Below, piece by piece: positions 29,751-46,394 of a DNA stretch of 60,547 nt. This stretch comes from a virus, in IMG/VR virus record IMGVR_UViG_3300009080_000013, positions 1-60,547 of that record. The stretch is one strand, 5' to 3'. Numbering within the stretch: position 1 is the stretch's first letter; every line of letters starts with the position of its first letter. Below the pieces are notes generated by a model, which searched no databases, was not told the DNA's origin, and saw only the letters and a list, made by a program, of their open reading frames with translations. A program made the translations under genes and the position numbers.

Positions 29751-31727
29751 CTAAGCCATTTCTGAATAGACAGTGTTTGCGAAATTTGCTCTTTTATCCA
29801 AGGCTCTTTCAGATTGATCAGCAGGTCTTTCATATTTAGTTAAAAAATAATTAGTTGCGTTTCTAACATCAGATTGCGATTTTAGCGTAGAGAATTTACT
29901 GCTGTTTTTAGATATCCAATGTTTCAAATATTCATAATTTAATTCATCTGTCATCGGTTGGGTATTTAGATCTACTCCTTTTTTCTTAGCAAACGCTATT
30001 AAGTCAGTCTTTAAACTAGGATGAGTATATTGAGCCCATCCGTAACCTCCATTATTTGCTTGAGGAAGAGTTCCTCTTTTTACGCCGGATCCTTGTATTC
30101 TATCCGGTATTAGTCCGCTTTCTGCCCATAAATTTCCAACCACACCTGCTGCAACTTCTTTAGTAACATTTAAGTCTTTTACTAAAGCATTGGCTATAGC
30201 CGCTCCTTTAATTGTTTTTTCTCTATCGTTCATTGGAATAGACTTAACGCTCGATAATGTAGAATTTACATTAGCAGTTAGTGTATTTGCTTCAGGACTA
30301 GGTGTCTGCGTTTTATTAGGTGCCGCATCTTTAAATGCGATTTGTAATTCTTTAAAATCCTTAGGCTCCATTTTAATAATATCAGCTGTTCCTAAAGCCT
30401 CTATTGCGCTTGAATTAAAGGCTTTTAGATAAAAAACGTTTAATTCTTTGTTATAAATTATATCAACTTCAGGTTTAGAACTAACTATGTTCTTGATATC
30501 AGCCGTGTTAGATGGTCCAGTCCCATCTATTGGACTGGTTTTTACTCTACCATCTCTGTAATAATCGGCTAATTTTGTATCATTTGCTCTTTTAGCATCT
30601 CGTATTCTCTTAAATATGTTCCTTTCAAGAATCAAATCAGAAAATTTACTAGCCGTTCCTGTATTCTCTATAATAGCTCGTTTTATTACGAGGTCTGGAT
30701 CCTTTGAAACATTGGTAGCATCAACTGTTATTATTTTATTTGGAAATAAACCCGGCATTATCACTTTGATAGGTTTATTAACCATTTTTTGCACTGGGCT
30801 TGTATAATTATCTAATCCTATGTCAATTTGTCTATTTCCACCTGATGTTAACTTATCTTTAAATTTACTATCCTTAGTCATTAAAGTGTATAAATCTTTG
30901 TCTATGATAGAATCAGCTTTCATGTTATTTTTTAATTTCCAATCATTAACTGCATCAGTTGTTTTAGTACCTATCTCACCATCGACTCCATCCTTATTAG
31001 GTCCAAAGGTGCCTAAATCGTAGTTTAATTTTATTAAGACTAATTGTATCTTTTTAATATCGTTTTTAGAAAGACCTCCGATGTATTCTTCACTAGAATA
31101 ATCAGTAGGAGCATCTGCAACAACAGTAGATATTGTCTTTTCAAATTTTTCACTTCTATGTCCTTTAAAATAATCTATGAAACCTATTAAACTTCCCTGT
31201 GAAAGTTTTCTGGTATTTCTACCTACACGATGACCTTCTCCTGAAAGTTTATCGTTTGTATTTCCTTCTATTGTGGTAAAAGTTTTATTTTTTGAGTCCA
31301 CCGCGGTTACTATACCAGTATGACCTCCGCCATCTCTGCTTTGAATAAAAACCTGTCCAGGTTTTACTAAACCAGGGTTATTTCTAGCCTTAGCAATGGG
31401 TATTTTTAAAGAAGAATCTGCCTTATTCCAGTGTTTCATTACACCGGCTGTTTTAATAACTGGATTTTTTAATCCTAGTTTTTTACAAAAATCATCAAAC
31501 ATTGCGTAAACAAAAGCAGCACACCATGGATAACCATTCTTTCCTTTTTTTCTATTGTTCAATCCTACTAAATCAAAATATCTGTCTATTTCAGGGCTTC
31601 TATTTGATCCGGCCGGTATTTCTCTTACATTTACATTTTGTGCGAGAGTATCTGCATACGGAACAGCCATTTGATCTGGTTTTCCTTCAATTGAGTCTTC
31701 GTTTAATATGTCCTTAAAAGATTTCAT
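29751..31727 (-). CDS. Peptidoglycan hydrolase: CHAP/NlpC-like, peptidoglycan-binding and tail-lysozyme domains
   Basis: 658 residues from the ATG at 31727; an upstream ATG at 31781 would overlap the previous gene. The N-terminus MKSFKDILNE|D resembles a T4 capsid-targeting leader with a gp21-like site. Domain 1 (~60-190) is CHAP/NlpC-like, with catalytic Cys in YPWCAAFVYAMF and His in GGGHTGIVTA. Domain 2 (~215-270) is PG-binding type 1 (IQLVLIKLNYDLGTFG ... DGVDGEIGTKTTDAVNDWK). The C-terminal ~130 residues look like a phage tail lysozyme (GVVGNLWAESGLIPDRI, GGYGWAQYT). It would cut cell wall during entry or lysis. Last gene of an eight-gene minus-strand operon. Confidence 0.8.
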   Translation of the reverse strand: MKSFKDILNEDSIEGKPDQMAVPYADTLAQNVNVREIPAGSNRSPEIDRYFDLVGLNNRKKGKNGYPWCAAFVYAMFDDFCKKLGLKNPVIKTAGVMKHWNKADSSLKIPIAKARNNPGLVKPGQVFIQSRDGGGHTGIVTAVDSKNKTFTTIEGNTNDKLSGEGHRVGRNTRKLSQGSLIGFIDYFKGHRSEKFEKTISTVVADAPTDYSSEEYIGGLSKNDIKKIQLVLIKLNYDLGTFGPNKDGVDGEIGTKTTDAVNDWKLKNNMKADSIIDKDLYTLMTKDSKFKDKLTSGGNRQIDIGLDNYTSPVQKMVNKPIKVIMPGLFPNKIITVDATNVSKDPDLVIKRAIIENTGTASKFSDLILERNIFKRIRDAKRANDTKLADYYRDGRVKTSPIDGTGPSNTADIKNIVSSKPEVDIIYNKELNVFYLKAFNSSAIEALGTADIIKMEPKDFKELQIAFKDAAPNKTQTPSPEANTLTANVNSTLSSVKSIPMNDREKTIKGAAIANALVKDLNVTKEVAAGVVGNLWAESGLIPDRIQGSGVKRGTLPQANNGGYGWAQYTHPSLKTDLIAFAKKKGVDLNTQPMTDELNYEYLKHWISKNSSKFSTLKSQSDVRNATNYFLTKYERPADQSERALDKRANFANTVYSEMA

Positions 31728-31741
31728 AATATTATAGTTAT

Positions 31742-32242
31742 TTATTTGTTCAGGTGACGATCTAAAACTATTAACTGCCACTTACTTATTTTTGGATAGG
31801 CCTCATCTGCACTTAAGAAACCTGCCCAATCTATTTCTTCTTTTTGTAAGTTATCATTTGATATTCTTAAACTCGTCATTCCTATTTCAGACAGACTTGT
31901 TACTTCATGTAAAAAATAAATAAGTTGCTTTTCTATATCTCCTTTTTTATTATAGGTGTTACATACATATGGCTCAGATCTAGATAGAATAGAAGGATTC
32001 AGTGATATTCCAGTTTCCTCTTTCAATTCTCTAATTGCTCCTGTTAAAACATCTTCTCCAGTTTCTACTTTTCCTTTAGGTATGCCTAACGTTCTTTTTT
32101 GCCAGCTCGCGTTTGTTGGGTGAACTAATAATATTTTATTTTCATATATTATACACACGCCCGCTACCTTTTTTTCTAATGAATCAATGACATCTTTCCA
32201 TTCTTCGTTCAATATAGATTTTAAATTTTTGAAGGTTTTCAC
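31742..32242 (-). CDS. Nudix hydrolase with capsid-targeting-like leader
   Basis: 166 residues; GTG start at 32242 overlapping the previous stop (GTGA). A perfect Nudix box (GX5EX7REUXEEXGU) runs from GKVETGEDV to EETGI, with all metal-binding Glu present, so it should hydrolyse a nucleoside diphosphate linked to another group. Upstream GVCIIYENKILLV is the usual first strand. The N-terminus MKTFKNLKSILNE|E is like the leaders of its neighbours and precedes the Nudix fold, suggesting packaging and processing in the capsid. Substrate cannot be predicted; dNTP, NADH or RNA-cap type activities are all possible. Confidence 0.85.
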   Translation of the reverse strand: MKTFKNLKSILNEEWKDVIDSLEKKVAGVCIIYENKILLVHPTNASWQKRTLGIPKGKVETGEDVLTGAIRELKEETGISLNPSILSRSEPYVCNTYNKKGDIEKQLIYFLHEVTSLSEIGMTSLRISNDNLQKEEIDWAGFLSADEAYPKISKWQLIVLDRHLNK

Positions 32243-33009
32243 TTTTTAGATTTACTTTTTTTAACGTTTGCCCATGGTTTACTAGGTGTTGCTTTATTTA
32301 CTCTAGCCATTGCCCATCCATGTGCAGTCATGCCTGGTCTTGACCCAGAACTGTAAAATGCTCCAAGGCCCTTAATGTACTCTGCTCTTAAACTACCAAA
32401 GGTATATCCTTTTTTATTTGCGACTTTTCTTATTTTTGCTTCAGTTGCTTTACTTAAAGTCTTTTTCTTTTTCTTTGCTTTTTTAGCTTCATTAATAGGT
32501 TCAGTGTCTTTATTTCTTATACAAAGTTCTCCTAATACTTCTATTTTACCTACTATTTCTTGAAATTTCTTTTGGGTAATGTTCATATCTTTAGAAGTAG
32601 CTTCTATTAGTTCGTTCAATAATTCATCATATTCATCTTTAAAATCTGACATATCAAATTTTCCACTAGCTGCTTTTTTATAATATGGAAGTTTAACTTT
32701 AAAATGATCATATGAAAGCATTGAAAGGCCTCCTTTTTCTTTAGAGCTATCCACTGTGCTTTTTGCTCCGTCTCCTCTTTTTTCAGCGAATTCTTTTAAA
32801 TCCACCTTAGGGTCTATTGTTTCATTTGTTCTCTCTTCAGCTTCCATCTCATCTCTAAGTTTATAAGCTTTTTTCTTATCGGCTTCAGATCCCTTTAATA
32901 GTTTCTTAGCTTTATTTAATTTAGCATCCCTGGAGCTTCCTTTAGGGGCCTTGTATTCAGTTGGGTGTGCTTCTTTTAAGTACTCATTATAATCTTTAAT
33001 TCGTTCCAT
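32239..33009 (-). CDS. DUF5824-like protein with internal processing-like site
   Basis: 256 residues, Lys/Glu-rich. N-terminus MERIKDYNEYLKE|A is leader-like. Residues ~170-256 form a basic domain with YIKGLGAFYSSGSRPGMTAH and GWAMARVNKA, the hallmark (SGSRPG...WAMARV) of DUF5824, a family found in large phages with unknown function. Just before it stands EPINE|AKKAKKKKK, which repeats the leader-type cleavage signal inside the protein, so the domain may be released by the head protease. Overlaps the Nudix gene by four bases. Confidence 0.65.
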   Translation of the reverse strand: MERIKDYNEYLKEAHPTEYKAPKGSSRDAKLNKAKKLLKGSEADKKKAYKLRDEMEAEERTNETIDPKVDLKEFAEKRGDGAKSTVDSSKEKGGLSMLSYDHFKVKLPYYKKAASGKFDMSDFKDEYDELLNELIEATSKDMNITQKKFQEIVGKIEVLGELCIRNKDTEPINEAKKAKKKKKTLSKATEAKIRKVANKKGYTFGSLRAEYIKGLGAFYSSGSRPGMTAHGWAMARVNKATPSKPWANVKKSKSKK

Positions 33010-33013
33010 ATCT

Positions 33014-33574
33014 TTAATCTTTATCTTTTTTTAATAAAATCAAGACTTTATCTCTAACTTTTTCCATCTTTTTAGCATATGCTGGATCTGACTTTTTATT
33101 AAAGTTTATTTGTTGATTAAGACTTCCGGTTATTTTTCTCATGTCACCTTTTCTTGTTTTAATCAACCATTCAGCTAATGCTTTTATTCCTAGTTTTTTA
33201 AATTTTCCATTGGCATCCGGAGCATCAGAATGATGAAATTCTAGTTTTTTTTTCTCATTTACTTTTATAAAATCGTTAAAGCCAACTACTACACTTTCAG
33301 ATGCCATAAAATCAAAATCTAAATTTTTTGAAATACTATCAGTTTGCATATCATTATTTGGTACAGGAACCTCCTTTGTTGTATTCATAATAAAATCAAA
33401 TACTTGATCCATATTTTCTTTAGCTACCGATACATGATCATCTGCCCAATCATGGCCTTGTTGTAATATATCATCTAACATATCAGGATCCATTTGATAA
33501 AGCAAAGTTGCTTGTCTCATTATTTGTTGCAAATTCTTAAAAAACATATAGTTTTTTTGTTTATGATGTCCCAT
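33014..33574 (-). CDS. Hypothetical two-part protein with internal leader-like peptide
   Basis: 186 residues; an alternative ATG at 33547 would avoid overlap with the preceding gene. The first ~75 residues are a helical unit (QIMRQATLLYQMDPDMLDDI, HDWADDHVSVAKENMDQV) of a type seen in other large phages. Then VVGFNDFIKVNE|KKK, a leader-like peptide with a cleavage-type ending, introduces a basic C-terminal domain (FHHSDAPDANGKFKKLGIKA, WLIKTRKGDMRKITGSLNQQ). It looks like a fusion of a cytosolic gene with a packaged-protein gene. Function unknown. Confidence 0.6.
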   Translation of the reverse strand: MGHHKQKNYMFFKNLQQIMRQATLLYQMDPDMLDDILQQGHDWADDHVSVAKENMDQVFDFIMNTTKEVPVPNNDMQTDSISKNLDFDFMASESVVVGFNDFIKVNEKKKLEFHHSDAPDANGKFKKLGIKALAEWLIKTRKGDMRKITGSLNQQINFNKKSDPAYAKKMEKVRDKVLILLKKDKD

Positions 33575-33851
33575 TATAATTCTTTTTTATTTTATATATC
33601 GCGATTCCTGTTCCTTTTATGACCCTATGCCACTTTCCATTTGGAATTTTGATAGTTTGCCCAGGATCTATATTCTTTGGTAATTCATTCTCTAATTGAA
33701 TTTGCCAATTGTTCTTGTTAAGGGATTCTATTTCCCTGTCTTCTAAATCCCTATGCCACATAAAATCCTCTGAATCGGTAGATTCTTTAAACGTTCTAAT
33801 GACTACGTCATTGTCGATTTCATGCTCAATATATGGGTCAGTGTTTACCAA
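33561..33851 (-). CDS. Cupin-like small protein
   Basis: 96 residues from a TTG at 33851 that overlaps the preceding stop (TTGGTAA). An earlier TTG at 33878 is possible; there is no ATG upstream before the in-frame stop at 33894-33896. The core FMWHRDLEDREIES, NNWQIQLENELP and IKIPNGKWHRVIKGTGIAIY has the paired His positions and Pro-x-Gly-x-x-His turn of a small cupin barrel, possibly metal-binding. It overlaps the next gene by 14 bases. Function unknown. Confidence 0.5.
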   Translation of the reverse strand: MVNTDPYIEHEIDNDVVIRTFKESTDSEDFMWHRDLEDREIESLNKNNWQIQLENELPKNIDPGQTIKIPNGKWHRVIKGTGIAIYKIKKNYNGTS

Positions 33852-34426
33852 TATCCTGGATACGTTTTTCCTCCCCAAAGATGAGCATATTTGTTAATTC
33901 TACAGGACCAATATCCAGCTGTTGTTTTATCTTTCTTTAAGTGACATTTATGTCTTGCAGCAAAACTCTTTCTAGCTTTAGGGTTACTTACTTTCGCTTT
34001 TAAACCTGTGGTATCACCTATTTGTAACATCTTAACATTTCCAGTCTTAGGATTTTTAACATATACTTTGAACTTTTTGGATCCTCCTCTAGTAGGATAG
34101 TTAAGTTTAACTTCTCGTCCTTTATATTTTGCTTCATTTAAAATAAAATCTTCAAGTGGTAAGTCAAGTGGAACCACAACTCCTTCATAGATTCCTGTTC
34201 TACCTAGATCTGTTGTATCAAAAAGAAAAGCATCATCTCCGCTCAGTTGTAATTCTCCTGATTTATATAATGATCTAGCTTCATTAAGAAGTTCTATGTG
34301 AGAAACACTGCCTGGTCTAAATACTGTCTCTACTATAGATATTGAATTAGATATGTGATATTGTAGATTTTCAGATATCAAAGAGCTACCTATATATTGA
34401 CTAAATGATTTGATTCTATTTTTCAT
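33845..34426 (-). CDS. Phage protein with leader and conserved basic Cys/His C-terminal domain
   Basis: 193 residues. N-terminus MKNRIKSFSQYIGSSLISE|N is leader-like. The first half has a small alpha/beta region (FRPGSVSHIELLNEARSLYK, TDLGRTGIYEGVVVPLDLP). Then LEDFILNE|AKYKG repeats a cleavage-like site before a basic domain, KKFKVYVKNPKTGNVKMLQI, NPKARKSFAARHKC and TAGYWSCRINKYAHLWGG. I recognise this Cys/His-containing domain as widespread in T4-like marine phages, unnamed to my knowledge. Its start overlaps the bS21 gene by 11 bases. Confidence 0.6.
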   Translation of the reverse strand: MKNRIKSFSQYIGSSLISENLQYHISNSISIVETVFRPGSVSHIELLNEARSLYKSGELQLSGDDAFLFDTTDLGRTGIYEGVVVPLDLPLEDFILNEAKYKGREVKLNYPTRGGSKKFKVYVKNPKTGNVKMLQIGDTTGLKAKVSNPKARKSFAARHKCHLKKDKTTAGYWSCRINKYAHLWGGKTYPGYW

Positions 34427-35415: not shown

Positions 35416-35604
35416 ATGAAGACTATTAAAAGCTTTAGTGATTTTGACAAATCATCTAATCACGTAGACGAACAACTTTTTAAAAAGGCTCGTGAAAAAA
35501 GAAAAGAAAAAAAGGCTTTAAAGAAAGCCGGCTCTTCGTTAGGGCAAGGTAGCGATAAGATAACAGGAGTAAGAGGAAAGGAAGTATATAGAGATGCAAC
35601 TTGA
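35416..35604 (+). CDS. N-terminal part of a gene interrupted by in-frame TGA
   Basis: 62 codons from ATG to TGA at 35602-35604. The N-terminus MKTIKSFSDFDKSSNH is leader-like and the rest is strongly basic (KAREKRKEKKALKKAGSSLG). The same reading frame continues past the TGA, with no further stop, through 35605-36525. The TGA therefore splits one long gene of about 368 sense codons. The codons around it are GCA ACT TGA GTA. It is either a nonsense mutation, a programmed readthrough site, or a sequence error. Confidence 0.6.
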   Translation: MKTIKSFSDFDKSSNHVDEQLFKKAREKRKEKKALKKAGSSLGQGSDKITGVRGKEVYRDAT

Positions 35605-36525
35605 GTAAAACATAAAGTAGTATGGAAAGCTCAAGATACCTCTAATTTTATAGTAAAACTAGTAAATGATTATAACTGGTTAGATAAAAACTCAAATTTA
35701 AATGCTGAAGGGCAAAATGCTCTAACTCAATTTTTAAATGGTGAAAATTCATTCGTAAATCAATATGGTAAATTAGACCAATTATTTTTTCAGAATAAAA
35801 TCATAGCCTACTCTGTTAGAATAGACAATGACAGAAAACAAAAAATACAGTTTACTATACTAAATAGGGCTGAGCTTTTGAAAAAACAGGATGCTATCGC
35901 AACAGACGGTACTGAATTAGTTTCAATAGATGGAGTAAATTACATAAATATAAAAGCTATAATGGCAATCGATAACCAACTAGCTATAAATCAGCAAGCT
36001 CTTTCAAATACAATTATTAAGGTTGAAGATGAAACTGAAGTAGTAGATGATGTAGTAGTAGATGATGATGTAGAAGTAGAAGAAATTGAAGATGAGATAG
36101 TGGATGATATACCTTTACCTGATGATTCTTTAATAGGTAAGAAATTTGAATATCAAAGTGGAGCAGACGGTCTTTTATATACGATTACAATTGACGAAGG
36201 AGAAAAAGGAGAATTAAAATTCTGGGCAGTAAGTAGAGATGGTTCCAATGAAGGTTGGATATCTTTAAAAGATGGAGAACCATTTTGGATTAATAAAAAC
36301 GGTTCAACTACTGCGATAACTAATGCTAAGGATAGGGAATTCTTTAAAAGAATATATACTGATACTGAATACCTTAAACAATTAATTGCTGCTTATGAAG
36401 CAAAATACCCTAATGGAGGAGATTGGACCGTAAAGGATATATTATTCTACACAGATGGTAATCAAATATATCAAGCTGAAAAACAAGATCCAGCAGATAG
36501 AACCTCAGTAGATGCGGGTTTATAA
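35605..36525 (+). CDS. C-terminal part of the TGA-interrupted gene
   Basis: Continuous frame of 306 codons after the TGA. There is no ATG in the first ~110 codons. The only common start near is a TTG at 35878, in the middle of apparently coding sequence (QFLNGENSFVNQYGKLDQLF, IAYSVRIDNDRKQKIQFTIL precede it). The rest contains an acidic linker (VVDDVVVDDDVEVEEIEDE), then a folded beta domain (KFEYQSGADGLLYTITIDEG, LKFWAVSRDGSNEGWISLKD) and a helical end. No family recognised. Most likely it is made as one protein with the 62-residue upstream part, so the translated start given by TTG is doubtful. Confidence 0.55.
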   Translation, partial: VKHKVVWKAQDTSNFIVKLVNDYNWLDKNSNLNAEGQNALTQFLNGENSFVNQYGKLDQLFFQNKIIAYSVRIDNDRKQKIQFTILNRAELLKKQDAIATDGTELVSIDGVNYINIKAIMAIDNQLAINQQALSNTIIKVEDETEVVDDVVVDDDVEVEEIEDEIVDDIPLPDDSLIGKKFEYQSGADGLLYTITIDEGEKGELKFWAVSRDGSNEGWISLKDGEPFWINKNGSTTAITNAKDREFFKRIYTDTEYLKQLIAAYEAKYPNGGDWTVKDILFYTDGNQIYQAEKQDPADRTSVDAGL

Positions 36526-36550: not shown

Positions 36551-38164
36551 ATGTCAAATAAAAATAATTCACTTCCAACTTGGTATAGTAACTATGGAAA
36601 AATGATAGTTGAGCAAAATACCACAATTGCTGTTTTTTCAGAAGATGCTAATGAGAGATTAAAACAATATCTAGATTCAAACGAAAATTTATTAGAAGAA
36701 ATAAATACAGCATATCAAAAAGTAGCCGATGGTTCGATATCCGAAGCATCTATTATTCTCGATGGCTCTAAATTCAAAGTAAAACCCGGAGATGAAATGG
36801 CCCTAACAATAGATAGATCTAATTCAGGTGAACCTAGAATAATGGTATCTTTAGAAAATGAAAAAACATTAGTTGGTGATTTAAATCTTTCGACTATTGC
36901 CGGTTATGTATATAAATCAATGGACGGTATGGGAACAGATGAACTTCAATATGCTTCTGCCGTTGCAGCTATTCATATGGATTTATGTGAAAGGAATGTA
37001 TCAGAAAGAGGTACACAAAGAGTTTTTGATATTTTTAATGCTGATGCTTTTGGAACTAAGTACGAAGGATATACATTAGATGAATGGATTGATGGAGATT
37101 TTGACGGGAGAGATGAAGCATGTGCAATGGCACTTGCTAAAAGACCTATACCTAAATCTATTATTAGAGGAATTAGTTGGGGAACTATTTTTACCGATTT
37201 AGGATTATTAATCCTTGCCGTTCCTACTTTAGGAGCATCTTTAGCAGCAACTTCTGCAGGCCGAGCTGCTATTGGAGCAGGAAAAGCTGCCACTAAAATA
37301 GGGAAAGCTGTTTCTAAGTCTAAAAAATTAGCTAAAGCCGCTAATACTGCAAAGGCTGCCGGTAAAGCTTTAAAAGCAGGTAAGGTTTTCGCTAGAGTAA
37401 CTCCAACTATGACAAAGGCCTGGAAAGCATTGGGCGCAGCAGGTAGACTTGCTAAAGCCAAAGCTTTTATGCCAGTTGGTAAAACAGTTGAATGGTTATC
37501 AAAAGCTAAAAACGTTTCAAATGTAAAAATTACTAAATACTTTACAAACGCAGCCGGTAAAAGCATGGTAAAACTTCAACAGGTAACCAGTACCGGAACA
37601 GGTACACTCGTATTCAATGTTGGCGTAGATAGTCTTTTACTTAACGCAGGTAAAGCAGGTGGAATGAGCATGAAAACTGCTACTAAACTAGCAGTAGCTG
37701 CTGGATTAACAGGAGCAATTAGTAAAGCTGAAACTGGAAATCTAGAAGGTATAGCGGGATCAGATGAACAAATGGACGATATGTTCAATCCATATAACCC
37801 AGCTGAATTGATGGGATATTATGATCAAACTAACGCTGATCCAGCAAAAGCAATGAGCCAATATAAACAATTAGCAGCCGCTGAATTAGCAGCTATGTTA
37901 TACGATGCAATGGATGGATGGACAGATAATTCAGACGAAATGGCTATTGCTTTGATGATACTAAGTATGGATAAAGAAACTGCTATTGCTACTAAAAAAG
38001 AATATGAAAGTGCTTACGCAGGAAGTAATTTTTACGAAGATGTTATTGCGAGTGAATTAGAAGCAACAATGGAAGAAATAGTAGGATGCTATTGGGCAGC
38101 CATGACTGGAACAGGTCCTTATGTAAACCAAGTTAAAACAAAACTAGCAGCAGCTAAGAAATAA
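36551..38164 (+). CDS. Protein with annexin-like repeats flanking an amphipathic helical region
   Basis: 537 residues. Near residues 120-200 the sequence GYVYKSMDGMGTDELQYASA, RGTQRVFDIFNADAF and LDEWIDGDFDGRDEACAMAL follows the annexin repeat: (A)M.G.GTDE, a helical middle, then L...I.GDF...A.AL. A second copy near 440-520 reads LYDAMDGWTDNSDEMAIALM, KKEYESAYAGSNFYEDVIAS, ELEATMEE. Between them lies a hydrophobic turn (GLLILAVPTLGASLAATSAG) and a long Ala/Gly/Lys amphipathic stretch with many KA(A/G) repeats. Annexin repeats bind membranes through calcium. A virion-borne membrane-interacting protein is inferred. N-terminus lacks a leader. Confidence 0.5.
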   Translation: MSNKNNSLPTWYSNYGKMIVEQNTTIAVFSEDANERLKQYLDSNENLLEEINTAYQKVADGSISEASIILDGSKFKVKPGDEMALTIDRSNSGEPRIMVSLENEKTLVGDLNLSTIAGYVYKSMDGMGTDELQYASAVAAIHMDLCERNVSERGTQRVFDIFNADAFGTKYEGYTLDEWIDGDFDGRDEACAMALAKRPIPKSIIRGISWGTIFTDLGLLILAVPTLGASLAATSAGRAAIGAGKAATKIGKAVSKSKKLAKAANTAKAAGKALKAGKVFARVTPTMTKAWKALGAAGRLAKAKAFMPVGKTVEWLSKAKNVSNVKITKYFTNAAGKSMVKLQQVTSTGTGTLVFNVGVDSLLLNAGKAGGMSMKTATKLAVAAGLTGAISKAETGNLEGIAGSDEQMDDMFNPYNPAELMGYYDQTNADPAKAMSQYKQLAAAELAAMLYDAMDGWTDNSDEMAIALMILSMDKETAIATKKEYESAYAGSNFYEDVIASELEATMEEIVGCYWAAMTGTGPYVNQVKTKLAAAKK

Positions 38165-38216: not shown

Positions 38217-38723
38217 ATGATGGAATTAAATTCAAATCAACAAACTGAAACGGTAGAAGAAAAAGAAAATACCGCGAAAGAAACAATAACAGAAACACCG
38301 GATGTACCTGAAAAGGAACTAACGGATGACGAAAGATTAACTCAATTAAAGGAATTTAGAAAAAATGGAAGTGTTACTTTAGATGCAACATATGATGTAT
38401 TTAAAAGAATTAGAAATACTTTTAAGAATGATACTCCTTGGTCTGGTCCTAATCAAGCTTATTTATTAAGTATCCTTATGCTTACATTAGAAGCATCTTT
38501 AGCTTCACTAGATAGTAAATCTACAGAATCACAGAAAATGAGCGTTAGGAATGATGCAATAGAAGCAATGAGTGTATTTATAGGATCAATGAATGGTAAA
38601 AATTCTCATTCTGCTCAAAGTCAATTGGGAATGTTTCTAGTATTACAAAATGGAATACAACAATTGCAAATGATAGATAGTCAAATATCTGAATTAGAAA
38701 ATAAATTAAATAATTCTAAATAA
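38217..38723 (+). CDS. Hypothetical helical protein
   Basis: 168 residues; either of two adjacent ATG (38217, 38220) could start it. Acidic disordered N-terminus of ~45 residues (TVEEKENTAKETITETPDVP), then an all-helical domain (QAYLLSILMLTLEASLASLD, DAIEAMSVFIGSMNG) and a C-terminal coil. No family recognised. Its position between the annexin-like and the acidic core-like proteins suggests a head-internal or structural role. Confidence 0.55.
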   Translation: MMELNSNQQTETVEEKENTAKETITETPDVPEKELTDDERLTQLKEFRKNGSVTLDATYDVFKRIRNTFKNDTPWSGPNQAYLLSILMLTLEASLASLDSKSTESQKMSVRNDAIEAMSVFIGSMNGKNSHSAQSQLGMFLVLQNGIQQLQMIDSQISELENKLNNSK

Positions 38724-38781
38724 TTTTTTTAGTTTTTTATTTGTTTAAAGCAGATATATAAATAAAATAAACATTAGTAAA

Positions 38782-39135
38782 ATGAAAAGAAAAATTGCTA
38801 ACTTTAATTCCTTCATGAAGAATAGACTGAATGAAATGGAAGAAACTGATAACCAATTCGCTATGAGCATGGATAATTATTCAGAAGCACCTGAAGAAGA
38901 TATGGATGAAATGGATGAAGATCCAGATCTAGATATGGAAGAAGGCGAAGACGAAGAAGAACTTACCATGGAAGATCTTAAAGCTGTAGTTGATGACCTC
39001 GAAGAAAGATTATCTGCATTAGAAGGTGGAGAAGACGAAGAGGAAGAAGACGAGGACGAAGAAGTCGAAGAAGAAGACGAAGACGAGGACGAAGAAGTTG
39101 AAGAAGACGAAGAAGAGGAAGAAGAAGAAATTTAA
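38782..39135 (+). CDS. Highly acidic internal head protein candidate with leader
   Basis: 117 residues. N-terminus MKRKIANFNSFMKNRLNE|M is one of the clearest leader-like peptides with a gp21-type L-N-E site. After it the protein is almost wholly acidic, with a short coiled coil (LKAVVDDLEERLSALEGG) and a C-terminal run of Glu/Asp from about residue 80. T4 has small acidic internal core proteins (gp67, PIP) that are cut in the prohead; this looks analogous. The GAA/GAC-rich coding repeats occupy 39024-39132. Confidence 0.6.
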   Translation: MKRKIANFNSFMKNRLNEMEETDNQFAMSMDNYSEAPEEDMDEMDEDPDLDMEEGEDEEELTMEDLKAVVDDLEERLSALEGGEDEEEEDEDEEVEEEDEDEDEEVEEDEEEEEEEI

Positions 39136-39161
39136 AATTCAACCTTGCTAAAAATATATTA

Positions 39162-39203
39162 AAGCATAGGTAACTGTTATTTTAATAATAGATATCTATG
39201 CTT
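39162..39203. other. Inverted repeat in leader of DUF192 gene
   Basis: AAGCATAG (39162-39169) and CTATGCTT (39196-39203) are perfect complements separated by 26 bases. They lie between the acidic protein gene and the ATG at 39217. It lacks a following T-run, so a translational control hairpin or operator is more likely than a terminator. Function unknown. Confidence 0.35.
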
Positions 39204-39216
39204 ATTCAGCTTTTAA

Positions 39217-39633
39217 ATGGACTCTAATTACAAAAGATCAATTCTTCTATTTGAAAACTACTGTAAACAGGATACAGTAGACAACAAGACAATTGATTGT
39301 AATTTAGGAAAATGTCCAATGAAGCTAAAAATAGCGTCTACTCCTCAATCTCAACTTAAAGGATATCAAGATGAAAAAGAGCCTTCTGATAATGAAGGTA
39401 TTCTATTCGTGTATCCTTCAGAGATACAGGCATCTTTTTGGATGAAAGATGTTAGTTTTCCCTTAGACATACTTTTTTTTAATTCAAATAAAGAATTAAT
39501 AGATTCCATGACAATGTCTCCTGATAGTTACCCAAAAATTTTTACATGCAAAAAGCCTGCACAATACGCAGTTGAGACTAGATCAGGATGGTATGCTAGG
39601 CATGGAAATAAAAGTATTAAACTTTCAATATGA
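39217..39633 (+). CDS. DUF192 protein with leader-like N-terminus
   Basis: 138 residues. SQLKGYQDEKEPSDNEGILF, ASFWMKDVSFPLDILFF and QYAVETRSGWYARHGNKSI follow DUF192 closely (GL..R..L....GMLF ... FWMKNT..PLDI.F ... LE..AGW...HGI). DUF192 is a small beta-rich fold of unknown activity, usually secreted in bacteria. Here the signal peptide is replaced by MDSNYKRSILLFE|N, a leader-like peptide. Two extra Cys (CNLGKC) precede the domain. The TGA stop overlaps the next ATG. Confidence 0.8.
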   Translation: MDSNYKRSILLFENYCKQDTVDNKTIDCNLGKCPMKLKIASTPQSQLKGYQDEKEPSDNEGILFVYPSEIQASFWMKDVSFPLDILFFNSNKELIDSMTMSPDSYPKIFTCKKPAQYAVETRSGWYARHGNKSIKLSI

Positions 39634-39806
39634 AAAAATCATACAGTAGAAAAGATTTAGATTGTAAAATATGCGAAGAAACCGTAAAAAACGTTAGCTC
39701 TGAAGCAACGGCTGTTACTTGTTGGAAATGCGTAAACGATCAACTAAAAGGAATGCCCATTTCTATTTCAGAAGACGATATTGATCACAAAGAAAATGAA
39801 GAATAA
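39630..39806 (+). CDS. Small zinc-ribbon protein
   Basis: 58 residues starting at the ATG in ATGA at 39630. Two CxxC knuckles (CKIC and CWKC, about 16 residues apart) predict a small zinc ribbon. The C-terminus is acidic (SEDDIDHKENEE). No family recognised. Overlaps DUF192 by four bases and the next gene by eleven. Confidence 0.65.
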   Translation: MKKSYSRKDLDCKICEETVKNVSSEATAVTCWKCVNDQLKGMPISISEDDIDHKENEE

Positions 39807-40260
39807 TAAACATATAGAATTGTATAAATCATTTACTAATGACTATTATGAATTATTATTAGAGGAATATTCTAAACAATCCGAACACAAAACATTTAAA
39901 AAATTTATTCTAAATAAAGCAAGCAGAGTAAAGGAAATATCCAAAAATGTAATTGTTGCATTTAAAAAAGAAGGATCTGAAACTTCCAATATGTTAAATG
40001 TATTTAATAGGCGCTTACGTAACAAGTTGAATTTAAAAACTAGAAGTGATATGCCAACCAAGCAGGAGTTAGACGAAGCATTACATCAATTAAAAGATGT
40101 TCCTAAGATGTTACCATTTGTTTTAGTTATGTTAACTACTCCGATACCTGGTTCCTCTACTATGTATACTGTCTTTGCTTATTTTCTCAAAAAGAAATCC
40201 AACGGTAAAATAAATTTACTTCCTGATTCTTTTGATAACATACTAGATAAAAGGAATTAA
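39796..40260 (+). CDS. Helical protein with LETM1-like C-terminal phrase
   Basis: 154 residues from the ATG at 39796; a TTG at 39781 would add five residues. Helical and basic. The end KDVPKMLPFVLVMLTTPIPG, then NGKINLLPDSF resembles the LETM1-like segment found in some phage proteins (hydrophobic helix, PGGS, LPSSF). The N-terminus contains HIELYKSF, faintly leader-like. Function unknown. Confidence 0.45.
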   Translation: MKNNKHIELYKSFTNDYYELLLEEYSKQSEHKTFKKFILNKASRVKEISKNVIVAFKKEGSETSNMLNVFNRRLRNKLNLKTRSDMPTKQELDEALHQLKDVPKMLPFVLVMLTTPIPGSSTMYTVFAYFLKKKSNGKINLLPDSFDNILDKRN

Positions 40261-40295
40261 ATATTTTTTATTCTTTTTTAAAACCGTTAACTGAA

Positions 40296-40315
40296 TCCCG
40301 GTATAATAAATTATA
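40296..40315 (+). promoter_or_regulatory. Putative phage promoter (GTATAATA class)
   Basis: TCCCGGTATAATAAATTATA about 20-40 bases ahead of the ATG at 40335, in a 74-base gap. Confidence 0.4.
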
Positions 40316-40334
40316 TTATAAAATATTTATTTAA

Positions 40335-41294
40335 ATGGAATTACGGGATATGAATGTAGGAATAATAGGTCAAGGCTTTGTTGGCACCGCCGTCAGGGAA
40401 AAATTTAAACAAACTCATAATGTTTACACATGTGATTTAGATGAATCTAAATGTGGATTATTCACTAAGGATAATTACGTTATTGAGAAATTAGAAATTT
40501 CTAATATAGTAGAAAAATGTGATATTGTATTTGTATGTGTACCTACACCCATGTTTAAAAGTGGTAAATGCGATCTCAATATAGTAGAAGATGTTATTTG
40601 TCAAATAGATGACGCAAGCATAGGCTTAGATAAAAATACAATAGCTGTACTTAAGTCAACTGTTCCTCCTGGAACAACCGAGTCCTTAAATAGAAAGTAT
40701 AGACGAGTTGGCATTAGTTTTAGTCCAGAATTTTTAACTGAAGCCAATTCAGTAGAAGATTTTGAAAACCAAGATAGAATAATATTAGGAATAGACTGGG
40801 CAGAACACATTAAACCTATTACTGATCTTTTCAAAAAGGTTTTTCCAAAGGCCAATATATCAGTATTAAATACAGCAGAAGCTGAATTAACTAAATACAT
40901 GACTAATTTATTTTTAGCTACTAAAGTTAGTTTTTTCAATGATATGTACGTATTAACTAATTCAATTAATAAAGATAAAACAGTTTCTCATGATATAGAT
41001 TTTAATTCAGTAGTATCAGCGACATTACTTGATCCTAGAATAGGAAATACTCATACTATGGTACCGGGTCCAGATGGAGATTTTGGTTACGGAGGCCATT
41101 GTTTTCCTAAAGATATGGCAGCTATATTAAATGTTGCAGATGAATTAAGTACATCATTACCTACTTTATTTGGAGCGTCTACTACGAACGCTATTGTTAG
41201 ACAAAACAGAGACTGGGAAGAAATGAAAGGAAGAGCAGTTTCTGAAAACGAAAACTTAGAAAAAACAGAAAATACTATTTCAAGTGAGCTTTAA
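40335..41294 (+). CDS. UDP-glucose/GDP-mannose dehydrogenase-like protein, C-terminally short
   Basis: 319 residues. N-terminal NAD-binding motif VGIIGQGFVGTAV, then VFVCVPTPM, KSTVPPGTTE and FSPEFLTEA, with catalytic Cys in YGGHCFPKDM: all hallmarks of nucleotide-sugar 6-dehydrogenases. Family members are usually 390-450 residues. Here the C-terminal nucleotide-sugar-binding domain is missing after the central dimer domain, and the tail is charged. The ATG at 40350 (MNVGIIG) is an equally good start. Together with the epimerase at 49181 it could divert host sugar nucleotides. Activity on its own is uncertain. Confidence 0.8.
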   Translation: MELRDMNVGIIGQGFVGTAVREKFKQTHNVYTCDLDESKCGLFTKDNYVIEKLEISNIVEKCDIVFVCVPTPMFKSGKCDLNIVEDVICQIDDASIGLDKNTIAVLKSTVPPGTTESLNRKYRRVGISFSPEFLTEANSVEDFENQDRIILGIDWAEHIKPITDLFKKVFPKANISVLNTAEAELTKYMTNLFLATKVSFFNDMYVLTNSINKDKTVSHDIDFNSVVSATLLDPRIGNTHTMVPGPDGDFGYGGHCFPKDMAAILNVADELSTSLPTLFGASTTNAIVRQNRDWEEMKGRAVSENENLEKTENTISSEL

Positions 41295-42063: not shown

Positions 42064-42361
42064 AATAAAATCTTCTAAATCAGAGGCAATATATGATGTA
42101 CTTGTAAAATTGCTAAAATGCTCTTCTAATTTTTATGAAAAAGAATCATTTATATATCATCATTCTGTAGTATCTCATGAAATTAGAAATTATAACCTTA
42201 AAACGCACGATTCCCTTAAAGTAAATTGGAAATTTTCAATATACGAAGACGAAATACTACAATTCAATTGTAAAGAAGGTGCTTCTATGGATGTTTTTTT
42301 AAAATCAATAGCCATTCAAAATAAAGCAAATAGTTTAATAGCTTATATATTAAAAGAGTAA
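42044..42361 (+). CDS. Hypothetical protein
   Basis: 105 residues, overlapping the previous gene by 20 bases. Lys/Ser-rich alpha/beta (YDVLVKLLKCSSNFYEKESF). No family recognised. It shares general size and layout with the following gene, but no clear homology is visible. Confidence 0.5.
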   Translation: MNGKKVKIKSSKSEAIYDVLVKLLKCSSNFYEKESFIYHHSVVSHEIRNYNLKTHDSLKVNWKFSIYEDEILQFNCKEGASMDVFLKSIAIQNKANSLIAYILKE

Positions 42362-42363
42362 AT

Positions 42364-42795
42364 ATGCAAGTTGTTAAAGTTCCTTTAGTAGAAGATATTT
42401 TTTTTAATATACAATTTAAAAAATTTATTTTATCCAAGATAAATTCCCTATATGTTGAATATAACGAAATACCTAACGAATTAATATTCAAGGGGGCTCT
42501 CGGGAGACGTCTATTTAATCTTATAAATGATAACAGTTGGAAATTTGGTAAAACTAAAATATTTCACGAGAAGGGACCTAATGAAATAGAAATTAAATAT
42601 ACCAGGAACATAACGGTTAAGAAAAATTCAGACTTAGCCTCTCATGTAAAATCAAGCCTAGATGGAAAAATAGTAGATGGATGGATGAATTCAAAAAGTC
42701 AATCTTCTATAGTAAATTCAAATATTGATACTAATTTTAATATAGAAAAAACAGTTACTCCTAATCTAATAATAAAACTAGAAAAGCTAGTGTAA
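42364..42795 (+). CDS. Hypothetical protein
   Basis: 143 residues. Alpha/beta with a Trp in DNSWKFGKTKIFH and a Ser/Asn-rich C-terminus. No family recognised. It follows the previous gene by two bases and ends before the secreted protein gene. Confidence 0.5.
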   Translation: MQVVKVPLVEDIFFNIQFKKFILSKINSLYVEYNEIPNELIFKGALGRRLFNLINDNSWKFGKTKIFHEKGPNEIEIKYTRNITVKKNSDLASHVKSSLDGKIVDGWMNSKSQSSIVNSNIDTNFNIEKTVTPNLIIKLEKLV

Positions 42796-42821
42796 TATAT
42801 AAAATAAACTTTTAATATATT

Positions 42822-43889
42822 ATGAATAAGTTAGTTTTACTTTTAACCTTATCACTATCTCAATTTTTTTATTCCCAATCATATACTGATACTGTTAAAT
42901 TTGATCGTATGGAAGATTTTGATTGGAATGGAAATTGGTACTTTTCAGAACCGACTACTGGATTTTTTACAAACGCTTCAAAATCAGCACCTACATCAGC
43001 TGTTATTTATGGAACTGGCGGCGGTACAGACGAATATGATTGGTATTCTTTACCAAACATAACAGGATTAGATCCATTTAAGGAATATAAAATACAAATT
43101 AATTTAGGAGCATATAGATTTACATCAACGGGAGGATCGTCTGGCGTAGATGCTAGCGATTATGTAGAAGTACAAATATCTACCGATGGAGGTTCTAACT
43201 ATTCTTCTGAACTAAGAGTCACTGGTTTTAACAATGCTTATTGGGATTATAATTCACAAATTGCTTCAGTAAATGTAGATGGAAATTTAGATATATTTAC
43301 ACCAGCTGGAGGAGGAAATAGAACGCTAACGGGGGATGGATATTCCGTTTTAGAATTAATTCTACCTTTTGGAACTACTCAAGTGGCTGTTGATATTTTA
43401 TCATTGGTAGATAGGCCAGGCGAAGAATGGTGGATAGACGACATATATCTGTTAGGATCAGTTAACAATCCTTTACCGGTTGAATTAATATATTTTAGAG
43501 GTGAACAAAAAAATGATTATAATATTTTAAGTTGGTCGACTATGTCTGAATCTAACAGTGATGCATTTGATGTAGAATGGAGTATAGATGCATATGAATG
43601 GAATTTAATAGATTCACAAACGGCCGCAGGTAATTCAAATACACAACAGTATTATTCATGTGTTCAAATGAATCCACTTCATGAAATAAACTATTACAGA
43701 CTAATTCAAAGAGATTGGGACGGTAACTTTGAAATATTCGGTCCAATATACGTAGATAATAGACAAAGAGAAAAAGAAGTAGTTAGGTACTTAAACATTA
43801 GTGGGCAAGAAATAAACCCTAGTTATTTTTCTGGAATAGTAATAATACTATATAAAGATGGTACTTTTTCTAGAGAGTACTTAAAATAA
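42822..43889 (+). CDS. Secreted protein with type IX secretion-like C-terminus
   Basis: 355 residues. The N-terminal signal peptide is MNKLVLLLTLSLSQFFYSQS. A beta-sandwich-like region (~20-215) is rich in Asp/Gly/Thr. Then PLPVELIYFRGEQKNDYNIL followed by SWSTMSESNSDAFDVEWSID and YYRLIQRDWDGNFEIF is the module preceding the sorting domain in many Bacteroidetes T9SS substrates. The last ~45 residues (VVRYLNISGQEINPSYF ... IILYKDGTFSREYLK) look like a T9SS C-terminal sorting domain. A host-derived surface protein gene captured by the phage is the likely origin. A terminator follows. Confidence 0.7.
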   Translation: MNKLVLLLTLSLSQFFYSQSYTDTVKFDRMEDFDWNGNWYFSEPTTGFFTNASKSAPTSAVIYGTGGGTDEYDWYSLPNITGLDPFKEYKIQINLGAYRFTSTGGSSGVDASDYVEVQISTDGGSNYSSELRVTGFNNAYWDYNSQIASVNVDGNLDIFTPAGGGNRTLTGDGYSVLELILPFGTTQVAVDILSLVDRPGEEWWIDDIYLLGSVNNPLPVELIYFRGEQKNDYNILSWSTMSESNSDAFDVEWSIDAYEWNLIDSQTAAGNSNTQQYYSCVQMNPLHEINYYRLIQRDWDGNFEIFGPIYVDNRQREKEVVRYLNISGQEINPSYFSGIVIILYKDGTFSREYLK

Positions 43890-43921
43890 TATATCTAAAA
43901 ACATGTAATAAAAGGAGCACT

Positions 43922-43946
43922 GTACTATACTCATATAGTACTTTTT
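43922..43946 (+). terminator. Intrinsic terminator
   Basis: Perfect 8-base stem GTACTATA (43922-43929) / TATAGTAC (43934-43941) with a 4-base loop and five T. It isolates the secreted protein gene from the cyclase gene. Confidence 0.8.
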
Positions 43947-44013
43947 GACTATATAGACTTAGTACCATATTACTATAAAAGTATTTTTATAAATAATATA
44001 AATTATATTTTAT

Positions 44014-44721
44014 ATGTATAATAGCCTAATTACTCAGTTTGAATTATTTGAAAGCGTATCTGATTTAGATAAACTACAACAGAAAAATCAAGCCATACTA
44101 TTTACAGATGTAAAGTCTAGTTCTAAATTATGGAATTTACACAAAGACGGAATGTTTGACGCGTTAGAAGAACATGAAAAAAGAATGGAAAAGATAGTTC
44201 CAAAAAATGGAGGTGACATAATAAAAACAATAGGCGATAGTTATATGCTTGGATGGGATGGAACAGATTCGTTATACAAAGCTATTTTAACAGGTATTGA
44301 AATACAAAAAGATTTAGTTAAGAATCCAATTAAAATAAAAGGTCAAATCATGTCTATTAGAATGGGGATATCATGGGGACCTTTGTATAAAAAGAAGGTT
44401 AATATTCAAAATAAAAAATTATGGGATTATTTTGGAAACACTGTCAATACTGCTTCTCGAATGGAATCAACTGTTTCAAAGGCCGGTGAACTAGCTTTTA
44501 GTTTTACAGATTCTTTAGATAAACCTCAGGAAGAAAAAATAGTAAAATATTTAGAAGATAATAAATTTAAAATAGATATAACTGACTATAGTCATAAGTG
44601 TTATTCAGGTAAAAGAAAGAGATCTGGAAGAATGTTATCTGAATTACAACTACATACATGTGAACCTTTAACTAAATTGAAAGGCATTGGTAAGGTTACT
44701 GCGTATACTATAAAAATATAA
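44014..44721 (+). CDS. Class III nucleotidyl cyclase with leader-like N-terminus
   Basis: 235 residues. The catalytic domain (~26-165) reads QAILFTDVKSSSKLW (metal Asp at about 32), GDIIKTIGDSYMLGW (Lys ~71, metal Asp ~75), IRMGISWGPLY and LWDYFGNTVNTASRME (Asp ~138, Asn ~145, Arg ~149). These are the metal, base-selecting and transition-state residues of class III cyclases. The Lys/Asp pair favours ATP, giving cAMP. The N-terminus MYNSLITQFELFE|S is leader-like. The C-terminal ~65 residues are basic with a helix-hairpin-like LKGIGKVTAYTI. If packaged, it could alter host cyclic-nucleotide signalling at entry; that is inference. Confidence 0.8.
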   Translation: MYNSLITQFELFESVSDLDKLQQKNQAILFTDVKSSSKLWNLHKDGMFDALEEHEKRMEKIVPKNGGDIIKTIGDSYMLGWDGTDSLYKAILTGIEIQKDLVKNPIKIKGQIMSIRMGISWGPLYKKKVNIQNKKLWDYFGNTVNTASRMESTVSKAGELAFSFTDSLDKPQEEKIVKYLEDNKFKIDITDYSHKCYSGKRKRSGRMLSELQLHTCEPLTKLKGIGKVTAYTIKI

Positions 44722-44761
44722 CTATTTCTGGTTATAAATAATAAAAAGAATTTTTTTACAA

Positions 44762-46036
44762 ATGAAGAACTATTTAAAAGGATTTAGTGAGTTTTCAATA
44801 AACGAAATGGCAAGCACTCTCAGTAAGTTAGGCGTGCCTAAAAAACTAATAAAGGTAATACATAATTTACCAGATGCGATAGAAAAAATAAAACCATTTA
44901 CGTTTAAAGGAGGGTCGCAAAGACAAGCTGAACTTCCTCCTATTGCACAAAATAGACCTACACACGCTGTAGACGTACTAGATCATTTTAGAATGAAAAA
45001 AACAGAATTACTAGGTAACAATTATGGAGTTCATCCATATAAACAACCTGGTTACTTAGCAGATCTTGAAAAACTTCCTTGGGGAGATTGTAGAATATTA
45101 CTCGCTGTGCCTGAACCAGGTGGTAAATATGCTGGTCATGCTCCTCGTTTCGATTATATTTATAGTAAAGAAAGCGCATGGGGTAAAAAAGCTCAAGGTG
45201 GAGGTAAAAAATACAGAGTACTTACAATGGACGCAGAAGGAAGAATCTTGAGAGACTGGCAAGCTTATCAAGGAGATTTGACATATCCAGTAGATCCTAA
45301 CAATAGAGATGCGCCTAGAAGAAAAAGAAATGACTTTAAGAATTTTCCAACAGCAGCTGATGGAAAAATAGACGTTTATATACTAGATCCTGAAATAGAG
45401 GATTACGAAACTACTTATCAAGATATGGGAGGTAGAGAGGTACCTGTTCCAAGAAGAGTTGGAGTTGGTAAAGCAAGAGCTCTTAAAAGAAAAAGAGTAA
45501 AATCTAGAGAAATTACAGGTGGAAATTTCATTGCCGATTTTTCAGATAGATTTACTAAAATATTAAATGAACTTTTTGGAAAAAGAAAACAAAAAGCTGC
45601 AGAGAAATATGCCCAGTTAATAATAAGAGATGACGCAGATCCTAGTGAAATAGCTGATTTGTCTAATATCATATCATCTAACCCCGATGTTGCTGAAACT
45701 GTTAATAAGTACTATAAAGCATTTTTAACATACCTTAAAGCTAACGGAGATTATGAAGATGCTGACTTAAACGAAATAGGTGATATTTTTAATATATATG
45801 GAGGAAATTTAAGCCAATATGCATCTATTGCTGATGTAATTAAAATACACGGTAAATCGAAAGCTTTATATAGTTTTGCAGAATTTATCTTAACAGGAGA
45901 TGTCAATGATATCAACAAAGAAATGGAAAAAGCTATTGAAGCACCTGAAGAAGAATTAGGAGATGACTTTGAAGATATGTTAGATTTCGATTTTGATTTA
46001 GAAAATCCATTCGACGAAGATGAATCTGAAGCATAA
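44762..46036 (+). CDS. Putative internal head protein with leader
   Basis: 424 residues. MKNYLKGFSEFSINE|M is one of the clearest leader-like N-termini. The folded part has PTHAVDVLDHFRMKKTELLG, LPWGDCRILLAVPEPGGKYA and VLTMDAEGRILRDWQAYQGD, then a Lys/Arg-rich stretch (RRKRNDFKNFP; KARALKRKRVKSRE), a helical region and a very acidic C-terminus (DFDFDLENPFDEDESEA). No family recognised. Strong charge asymmetry, basic middle and acidic end, is usual for proteins stored with DNA in heads. Confidence 0.6.
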   Translation: MKNYLKGFSEFSINEMASTLSKLGVPKKLIKVIHNLPDAIEKIKPFTFKGGSQRQAELPPIAQNRPTHAVDVLDHFRMKKTELLGNNYGVHPYKQPGYLADLEKLPWGDCRILLAVPEPGGKYAGHAPRFDYIYSKESAWGKKAQGGGKKYRVLTMDAEGRILRDWQAYQGDLTYPVDPNNRDAPRRKRNDFKNFPTAADGKIDVYILDPEIEDYETTYQDMGGREVPVPRRVGVGKARALKRKRVKSREITGGNFIADFSDRFTKILNELFGKRKQKAAEKYAQLIIRDDADPSEIADLSNIISSNPDVAETVNKYYKAFLTYLKANGDYEDADLNEIGDIFNIYGGNLSQYASIADVIKIHGKSKALYSFAEFILTGDVNDINKEMEKAIEAPEEELGDDFEDMLDFDFDLENPFDEDESEA

Positions 46037-46394
46037 ACATATAGAGATATTTGAATCTAATGAAGATTCAAATAGTATACTAATTCCATTAATAAGTCTT
46101 AAGAAGATAGCTATTCAAGCTGCTACTATGGATAATTACGTAGACGGAGCTAGGTTAATAAATGATTTTCTCCAAAAAAATCATAATGACATAGTAAATT
46201 CAATGAAACTTGTAAAAACAGACAATACACGTTCTTTGTACATTGAAGATTTACTATATCCCTTTTATAATAGGTTCGGTAAAGATATATTAGATTCAAC
46301 ACTGGATGATTTAGATACAGGGAATGACAACTATGTTGATGATATTCCATCAGATGACGCGCAGGAATATGATGATTTAGAAATAGATTTCTAA
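46020..46394 (+). CDS. Small protein with leader-like N-terminus
   Basis: 124 residues. MNLKHKHIEIFE|S is leader-like (I-F-E site). Helical body and an acidic C-terminus (DDIPSDDAQEYDDLEIDF). Overlaps the previous gene by 17 bases and converges with the next, sharing four bases. No family recognised. Confidence 0.5.
   Translation: MNLKHKHIEIFESNEDSNSILIPLISLKKIAIQAATMDNYVDGARLINDFLQKNHNDIVNSMKLVKTDNTRSLYIEDLLYPFYNRFGKDILDSTLDDLDTGNDNYVDDIPSDDAQEYDDLEIDF

Follow-up and report, generated by a model that had tools for sequence, protein, structure and literature searches.

The 60,547-bp virus contig IMGVR_UViG_3300009080_000013, analysed over its whole length and referred to here as the window, encodes a series of otherwise dissimilar proteins that start with short leaders, predicted to comprise 10–19 residues and to end in L/I/F/V-x-E. 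Taken as a whole, these leaders are probably best explained as capsid-targeting sequences (CTS) of the type known from bacteriophage T4. The spacing of their motif equals that of the T4 internal protein (IP) IPIII, and a gp21-type prohead protease and a Gp23 capsid protein are encoded by the same virus type, which assigns the leaders to the known T4 targeting system and not to a new one. What looks new is a different element, namely the fusion of this protease to a presumed scaffold that carries 7–12 copies of the leader motif.

The window matches contig G001 (IMGVR_UViG_3300024346_000014, 125,649 bp) with 99.93% identity across 60,574 bp, and G001 in turn shares a 15,505-bp overlap of 99.97% identity with contig G015 (IMGVR_UViG_3300027751_001479, 88,921 bp). 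As G001 and G015 originate from different metagenomes, they represent one virus type and not one assembled genome; combined, they provide an inventory of 254 called proteins of at least 60 amino acids (aa) and, by arithmetic, about 199 kb. The relatives used for comparison were G003 and G007 (two contigs of one metagenome), G006 (207 kb), G008, G009 and the distant G005.

A T4-type leader motif at protein N-termini

Unsupervised expectation-maximisation on residues 4–24 of 471 dereplicated N-termini from G006, G008 and G009 afforded the motif [F/Y]-x-[E/D]-[F/Y]-[L/V]-[K/N]-E (FSEFLKE) with a likelihood gain of 265, compared to 164–178 in six shuffled sets, for which only 25 restarts were run as against 60 for the real N-termini. 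Its spacing corresponds to residues 4, 7, 8 and 10 of T4 IPIII (N-terminus MKTYQEFIAE); mutants of this protein revealed that residues 4 and 7 matter for targeting, and residues 8 and 10 for processing (PMC9026906, a T4 review). The resemblance to the T4 leader, as proposed in a preliminary description of the window, is supported by both the motif and this spacing. Transferred to other records and compared with internal windows, the motif marked 9/104 N-termini in G007 (p = 7e-6), 6/175 in G001 (p = 0.011) and 4/104 in G003 (p = 0.03), next to 5/110 in G005, 2/82 in T4, 2/115 in Sphingomonas phage PAU, 1/62 in phi38:1 and 1/43 in crAss001. A search that included the start methionine was dropped because it locked on this residue and also responded in control phages.

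The core motif [FYW]xx[FYW][LIVM]xE, beginning within the first 18 residues, was observed (expected) 5 (0.32) times in G001, 6 (0.49) in G007, 2 (0.39) in G003, 10 (1.2) in G006, 6 (0.56) in G008, 9 (0.56) in G009, 18 (1.43) in the first 200 kb of the huge phage LR756501 and 4 (0.36) in G015, the first 15.5 kb of which repeat G001. It was also found twice in the part of T4 analysed (0.37) and seven times in the distant T4-like G005 (0.25), and it was absent from the N-termini of phi38:1 (0.10 expected), crAss001 (0.13) and the 90 kb of PAU in which genes were called (0.68). The looser pattern of the preliminary description, an aromatic pair followed by (L/I/F)-x-E, was compared with 300 shuffles of residues 2–26 in proteins of at least 50 aa and occurred on 34 of the 184 N-termini of G001 (shuffle mean 16.8, maximum 26).

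Conservation points in the same direction. Among ortholog pairs with G003/G007, the loose motif was present on both N-termini in 28/166 cases, where 12.2 would be predicted on the basis of aligned internal windows (binomial p = 3e-5), so that roughly 12 of the 28 pairs may still be due to chance; the 28 include a helicase and, judged by eye, a topoisomerase-like protein. Orthologs of 36–40% identity retain the motif with different residues, as in MVKSYKEYIKE, MLLSFSEYVNE, MRAKNFDQYLNE and MSVKSYISFLKE. Leader-like starts run genome-wide, so the single cluster between 29751 and 46394 to which they had been assigned is too narrow a frame. Examples in G001 are MVKSYKEYIKE (351 aa), MKNYIKNFKGFVSE (74 aa), MIVKHFNDWQVLNE (635 aa) and MKYLLKLNEYVQEIVE (1383 aa), and in G015 MVKGYTDYLKE (141 aa) and MKNLISYSNYVLE (252 aa). 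By eye, and not as a count from any test, we estimate that this virus has about 20 to 30 true leaders.

A gp21-type protease fused to an array of leader-like repeats

Positions 38403–40400 of G015 encode a gp21-type S77 protease (PF03420, 46.1 bits over a cut-off of 27, 5e-12; phrog_207, 1.8e-37) that directly precedes the Gp23 capsid protein (PF07068, 1e-38). Its residues H87 and S142 occupy the DHPP/NHPP and SSR motifs that in T4 contain H85 and S140, which we take to be the catalytic residues of gp21. The protease sought outside the window is thus encoded by the missing part of this virus, and the objection that no gp21 exists fails; its absence from the window and G001 is due to these contigs being fragments. 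The search with phrog_207 was positive in seven of the first 14 records (T4 and PAU, which served as positive controls, and G006, G007, G008, G009 and G011) and negative in G000, G001, G003, G005, G010, G012 and G013; among 10 further records it was positive in six (G015, G018, LR756501, LR756500, Lak-A2 and S-PM2) and negative in G002, G014, G016 and G017. Pfam S77 was not found in the window, G001, G002, G003, G004 and G005, in searches run without a true gp21 genome as control. The remaining head module is likewise of T4 type, with a gp20 portal in G001 (Portal_T4, PF07230, 3.5e-62) and a large terminase in the window (PF03237, 8e-19) of about 31% identity to the terminases of PAU and cyanophages. 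The window gene at 36551–38164 was ruled out as major capsid protein, as it gave no PHROG, tblastn, PF07068 or other Pfam match and the Gp23 protein lies in G015.

The gp21-like part occupies only the N-terminal third of a protein of 653–667 aa. In the C-terminal part, [FYW]xx[FYW][LIVM]xE recurs at multiples of 14 residues; gaps of 28, 42 or 56 correspond to units that lost a key residue. The same fusion with its array occurs in the virus of the window, in relatives and in four phages of 635–735 kb, with nine copies in G015, nine in G007, eight each in G006 and G008, seven in G009, nine in G011, 11 each in LR756502, LR756504 and LR745206, and 12 in LR756501, where one further copy lies outlying and out of register. 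The consensus of 39 repeat units from G006–G009 reads INYTEYLAEKLNKG, and the aromatic positions are kept throughout (Y/F/H in 39/39 units and Y/H in 39/39). From its position before gp23 we infer that the repeat region is the scaffold; a separate gp22 scaffold was not found, the repeats being the C-terminal part of the protease protein itself.

A matrix built from the scaffold repeats alone also marks N-termini, namely 9/175 in G001 (1.8 expected, p = 3e-4), 4/75 in the window (p = 0.013), 7/104 in G007 and 7/145 in G009, with p values from 0.0003 to 0.03 for G001, G007, G009, G003, G006 and the window. It did not exceed chance in G005, T4, PAU, phi38:1 (1/62) and crAss001 (0/43). LR756500, whose array is decayed, yielded 4 leader matches in 100 kb (1.3 expected).

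A protease-fused scaffold with 7–12 copies of the motif suggests that the leader may be a detached scaffold repeat. Judged from sequence, targeting by a T4-type leader is very likely, and docking of the leader by mimicry of the scaffold repeat is a hypothesis that we slightly favour. During prohead assembly, each leader would form a short helix and join the scaffold core as one detached copy of the repeat. After completion of the shell, the protease half would cleave both the leaders and the scaffold repeats behind their Glu, which would release the cargo and break the scaffold down to small peptides; the released enzymes would remain with the DNA and be ejected into the host. This last step is proposed by analogy with T4 Alt and the IPs and is less certain for each of the named enzymes. 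For the complete proposal, in which the leader is a detached self-assembly repeat of the scaffold, the cargo gains entry to the prohead by fitting into the scaffold's 14-residue helical lattice, and leader and lattice are both taken apart by the fused protease, we consider the chances to be even. Since T4 has leaders without an array, the array is not required for targeting; in T4, recognition of the partner would need another basis, or the partner would have diverged.

Evaluation of alternative explanations

Several results weigh against this explanation. In the window, the loose motif occurred on 14 of 80 N-termini (shuffle mean 7.5, maximum 17), an about twofold excess that is not significant; lying below the shuffle maximum, it could not have proved the motif from the window alone. 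Only 2/80 window N-termini carry the strict T4 spacing (shuffle mean 0.7, maximum 4), and 0/75 score above the 99th percentile with the unsupervised motif. The loose motif gives many false positives, some orthologs lack it (e.g. those of G001 24675 and 17270), and several of the nine window leaders are weak. With the scaffold-repeat matrix, enrichment is confined to the top tail: across all N-termini, rank tests gave non-significant p values of 0.12–0.48 (window, G001, G003, G006–G009), the tail is not significant in G008 (4/151, p = 0.09), and a matrix from LR756501's own repeats marked just 4/214 of its N-termini (p = 0.15), though the core motif is frequent there. Lak-A2 showed neither array nor leader match in 100 kb, and no repeat array was present in the stretches searched of T4, S-PM2, SCTP-2 and PAU. 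Structure models of the 424-aa leader-bearing protein described below and of the protease-scaffold reached a mean predicted local distance difference test score of only 37.5 and 44.5, respectively, with the repeat region drawn at low confidence as a single helix (299–451).

The docking hypothesis competes with a simpler explanation that retains a real, if minor, share of the probability, namely that the leaders are truly of T4 type and that the scaffold repeats match them only through a common protease cleavage site. Leaders and repeats both end in L/I/V-x-E, close to the L/I-x-E motif of T4 gp21 (PMC9026906), and T4 leaders exist without a repeat array. However, the two aromatics are part of the match as well; in T4 they serve targeting and not cutting (PMC9026906), and their positions are conserved in 39/39 array units.

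Somewhat unlikely, in our view, is that the leader-bearing proteins belong to the prohead core or the head structure and, although processed, remain in the head rather than being ejected as effectors. The T4 core proteins are also cut (PMC9026906), and a core-like charge is found in the acidic 117-aa protein and in the 193-aa protein, the C-terminal part of which has a net charge of +20. On the other hand, a structural role is not obvious for the cyclase, Nudix and wall-hydrolase domains, and T4 Alt and many IPs with such leaders are ejected (PMC9026906). That the similarity merely reflects AT-rich gene starts (K, N, I, F and Y codons) together with selective reading of N-termini appears very improbable, for although the enrichment in the window alone is not significant and the first motif search with the start Met responded in control phages too, the signal was not reproduced by composition-preserving shuffles, internal windows or two unrelated control phages, is spacing-specific and is kept in distant orthologs.

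Leader-bearing genes and their cargo

The nine leader-like N-termini listed in the preliminary description for 29751–46394 are all present in the sequence but uneven in quality. An aromatic pair followed by (L/I/F)-x-E, said to be common to all, applies to part of them, as four proteins have no pair within four residues: the leaders of the wall hydrolase (MKSFKDILNE), the Nudix protein (MKTFKNLKSILNE) and the 124-aa protein (MNLKHKHIEIFE) contain one aromatic each, and that of the DUF192 protein (MDSNYKRSILLFE) two, seven residues apart.

On the minus strand, a 658-aa cell-wall hydrolase (29751–31727) combines the Pfam domains CHAP, PG_binding_1 and Phage_lysozyme2, all above their cut-offs when scanned as the 676-aa open reading frame. 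Its leader (31698–31727; MRSFREILSE in the G003 ortholog) has its start codon at an ATG (31727) located 18 codons into the longest frame. It is followed by a Nudix hydrolase of 166 aa (31742–32242; PF00293, 1.8e-13, 51.1 bits over a cut-off of 21.1) with a GTG start and its leader at 32204–32242; the ortholog in G006 has the more canonical leader MLIKKFSDFVNE, and the G003 copy was called from a later start (MLNEEWKD). The 256-aa protein with DUF5824 (32239–33009; PF19141, 1.5e-6) starts with MERIKDYNEYLKE (32971–33009), the best match to the scaffold repeat in the window (score 15.5). In the adjacent 186-aa protein (33014–33574), the leader-like site is internal (GFNDFIKVNE-KKKLEFHHSDAP); in G003 its halves are two separate genes, the second of which begins MKLLNFKNFVLNE-KKRLKFHHSDAP.

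The 193-aa protein (33845–34426, minus strand) carries the leader MKNRIKSFSQYIGSSLISE (34370–34426), for which the G006 ortholog again shows a more canonical form (METRLKGFTQFVNE). A second possible cleavage site precedes its basic C-terminal domain (phrog_7595, of unknown function), which was confirmed in 599 of 600 viral-contig stretches listed and is thus very widespread, with at least 599 occurrences. Drawing on 80 of these 599 relatives, we read Glu at this site in 49 of 78 readable loci (46 with L/I/V/F two residues before) and Asp in 26, and given this ratio the family was discarded as proof of cleavage, being only partial.

The plus-strand genes comprise one with leader MKTIKSFSDFDKSSNHVDE (35416–36525), interrupted by an in-frame stop in the window and intact in G001 (369 aa), the stop being either a natural variant or an assembly error; an acidic 117-aa protein (38782–39135) with leader MKRKIANFNSFMKNRLNE (38782–38835); and a DUF192 protein (39217–39633) with a weak leader in the form of a short N-terminal extension ending in LLFE (39217–39255), whereas the G006 ortholog was called without this extension. 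A predicted class III nucleotidyl cyclase (44014–44721; PF00211, 1.4e-21, 77.3 bits over a cut-off of 21.9) starts with MYNSLITQFELFE (44014–44052; MNMITSFKLFE in G003), followed by the 424-aa protein of unknown fold (44762–46036) with leader MKNYLKGFSEFSINE (44762–44806) and the 124-aa protein (46020–46394), the extension of which (46020–46055) reads MKHIKLFE in the G003 ortholog. Outside this region, a 269-aa protein without Pfam family (16861–17670, minus strand) begins with the leader-like MKYIRKIFEE (17641–17670).

The Pfam domains bear out the varied cargo, including cyclase, Nudix and cell-wall hydrolase, that had been described. Leader-bearing proteins carry CHAP with PG-binding and tail-lysozyme domains, Nudix, DUF5824, class III cyclase, DUF192 and a SleB-type wall hydrolase (Hydrolase_2). 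A DOT1-like methyltransferase and a DnaJ domain, the latter at its cut-off, occur on proteins whose leaders are only weak. The domain matches start only at residue 23 in the cyclase, 27 in the Nudix and 36 in the DUF192 protein, which indicates that the leader is an added extension. Apart from a weak match of 38 residues shared by the proteins at 29751 and 44762 (E 7e-5 to 3e-4), the mature parts of the nine are unrelated. The presumed lysis amidase (G001 3242) lacks a leader, whereas two other wall hydrolases carry one. Relatives of the 424-aa and the Nudix protein were found at two loci each (G001 and G003, and G001 and G002, respectively). Of five G001/G015 and five G006 leader proteins scanned, only DUF6576 and PG-binding domains passed Pfam, and among 10 of the 21 strict-motif proteins of LR756501 there was no convincing family, with only UPF0227 just over its cut-off. 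The same 735-kb phage encodes four paralogous leader-bearing proteins of 341–398 aa (1103 and 62965–66169 of the record), three of which were scanned and gave no Pfam family.

Genomic context

Adjoining the leader-bearing genes, a PAS-histidine-kinase protein (46966–49104, minus strand; HATPase_c, 2.7e-13) lies beside a response-regulator receiver (7.5e-10). A Sigma-70 region 2 protein is encoded at 12095–12760 (4.8e-11), and two further sigma-like N-termini were noted by eye in G001 (31075 and 57573), as were GroEL-like and ribonucleotide-reductase-like genes at the ends of G003 and G015. A secreted-looking 355-aa protein without Pfam match (42822–43889) has a C-terminus that by eye resembles a Bacteroidota sorting tail, which hints at a flavobacterial host.

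Relation to known systems and implications

The T4 core contains gp21, gp22, gp67, gp68, Alt and IPs, cleavage takes place after L/I-x-E, and the scaffold is fragmented (PMC9026906). The system described here shares with the T4 CTS proteins (IPI–IPIII and Alt) and gp21 a leader of 10–20 residues with the spacing Y/F-x-x-F/Y-I/L-x-E, unrelated cargo, an S77 protease and the gp20/gp23 head module. In contrast, T4 has a handful of leaders, whereas candidates occur here throughout the ~199-kb genome; the enzyme types found here (cyclase, Nudix and wall hydrolase) differ from that of T4 Alt; and gp21 and gp22 are separate in T4, whereas the protease is fused to a repeat scaffold here. The "strong candidate for a new delivery system" of the preliminary description is therefore better placed within existing knowledge, as the T4 review already ties the leader to the way in which T4-like phages may load varied proteins (PMC9026906).

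Shared leaders on varied cargo have been described for T-even phages (PMC3012670, PMC12373910, PMC9026906), in whose internal protein loci non-homologous cargo has only the leader in common and the proteins act on Type IV restriction of modified DNA (PMC3012670, PMC12373910); here, the cargo is not restricted to small inhibitors. The window also encodes a protein of the DNA alpha-glucosyltransferase family (26231–27655, plus strand; PF11440, 2.1e-29). This gene suggests that the DNA is modified as it is in T4, whose internal proteins protect such DNA against restriction, and makes an anti-restriction need like that of the T-evens plausible here.

The giant phages phiKZ and SPN3US are similar in that many head proteins are cut after Glu by a related protease and a mass of protein is ejected (PMC9026906, PMC5694885), but their propeptides are mostly much longer (PMC5694885, PMC13282480) and phiKZ uses the motif S/A/G-x-E (PMC13282480), a combination not seen in the predicted window leaders. 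PAU shares the gp21-type protease and bears MKTISKLYEA-like leaders on two of three internal capsid proteins examined (gp154 and gp142, not gp70); it differs in the form of the leader, in its separate protease and in having neither core-motif N-termini nor a repeat array in the 90 kb called.

In the open-licence literature searched, no paper connecting the leader to scaffold repeats was found. If the leader is a scaffold repeat, this would address a point called mysterious in the T4 review; a scaffold built from copies of the targeting motif makes recognition a direct question of binding. It would also provide a sequence rule for predicting which proteins are carried in the heads of large uncultured phages: as the code is readable in the sequence, candidates for packaging in T4-like and huge phages could be listed by scanning N-termini, and each genome would then probably yield dozens if the proposal is true, including signalling and nucleotide enzymes.

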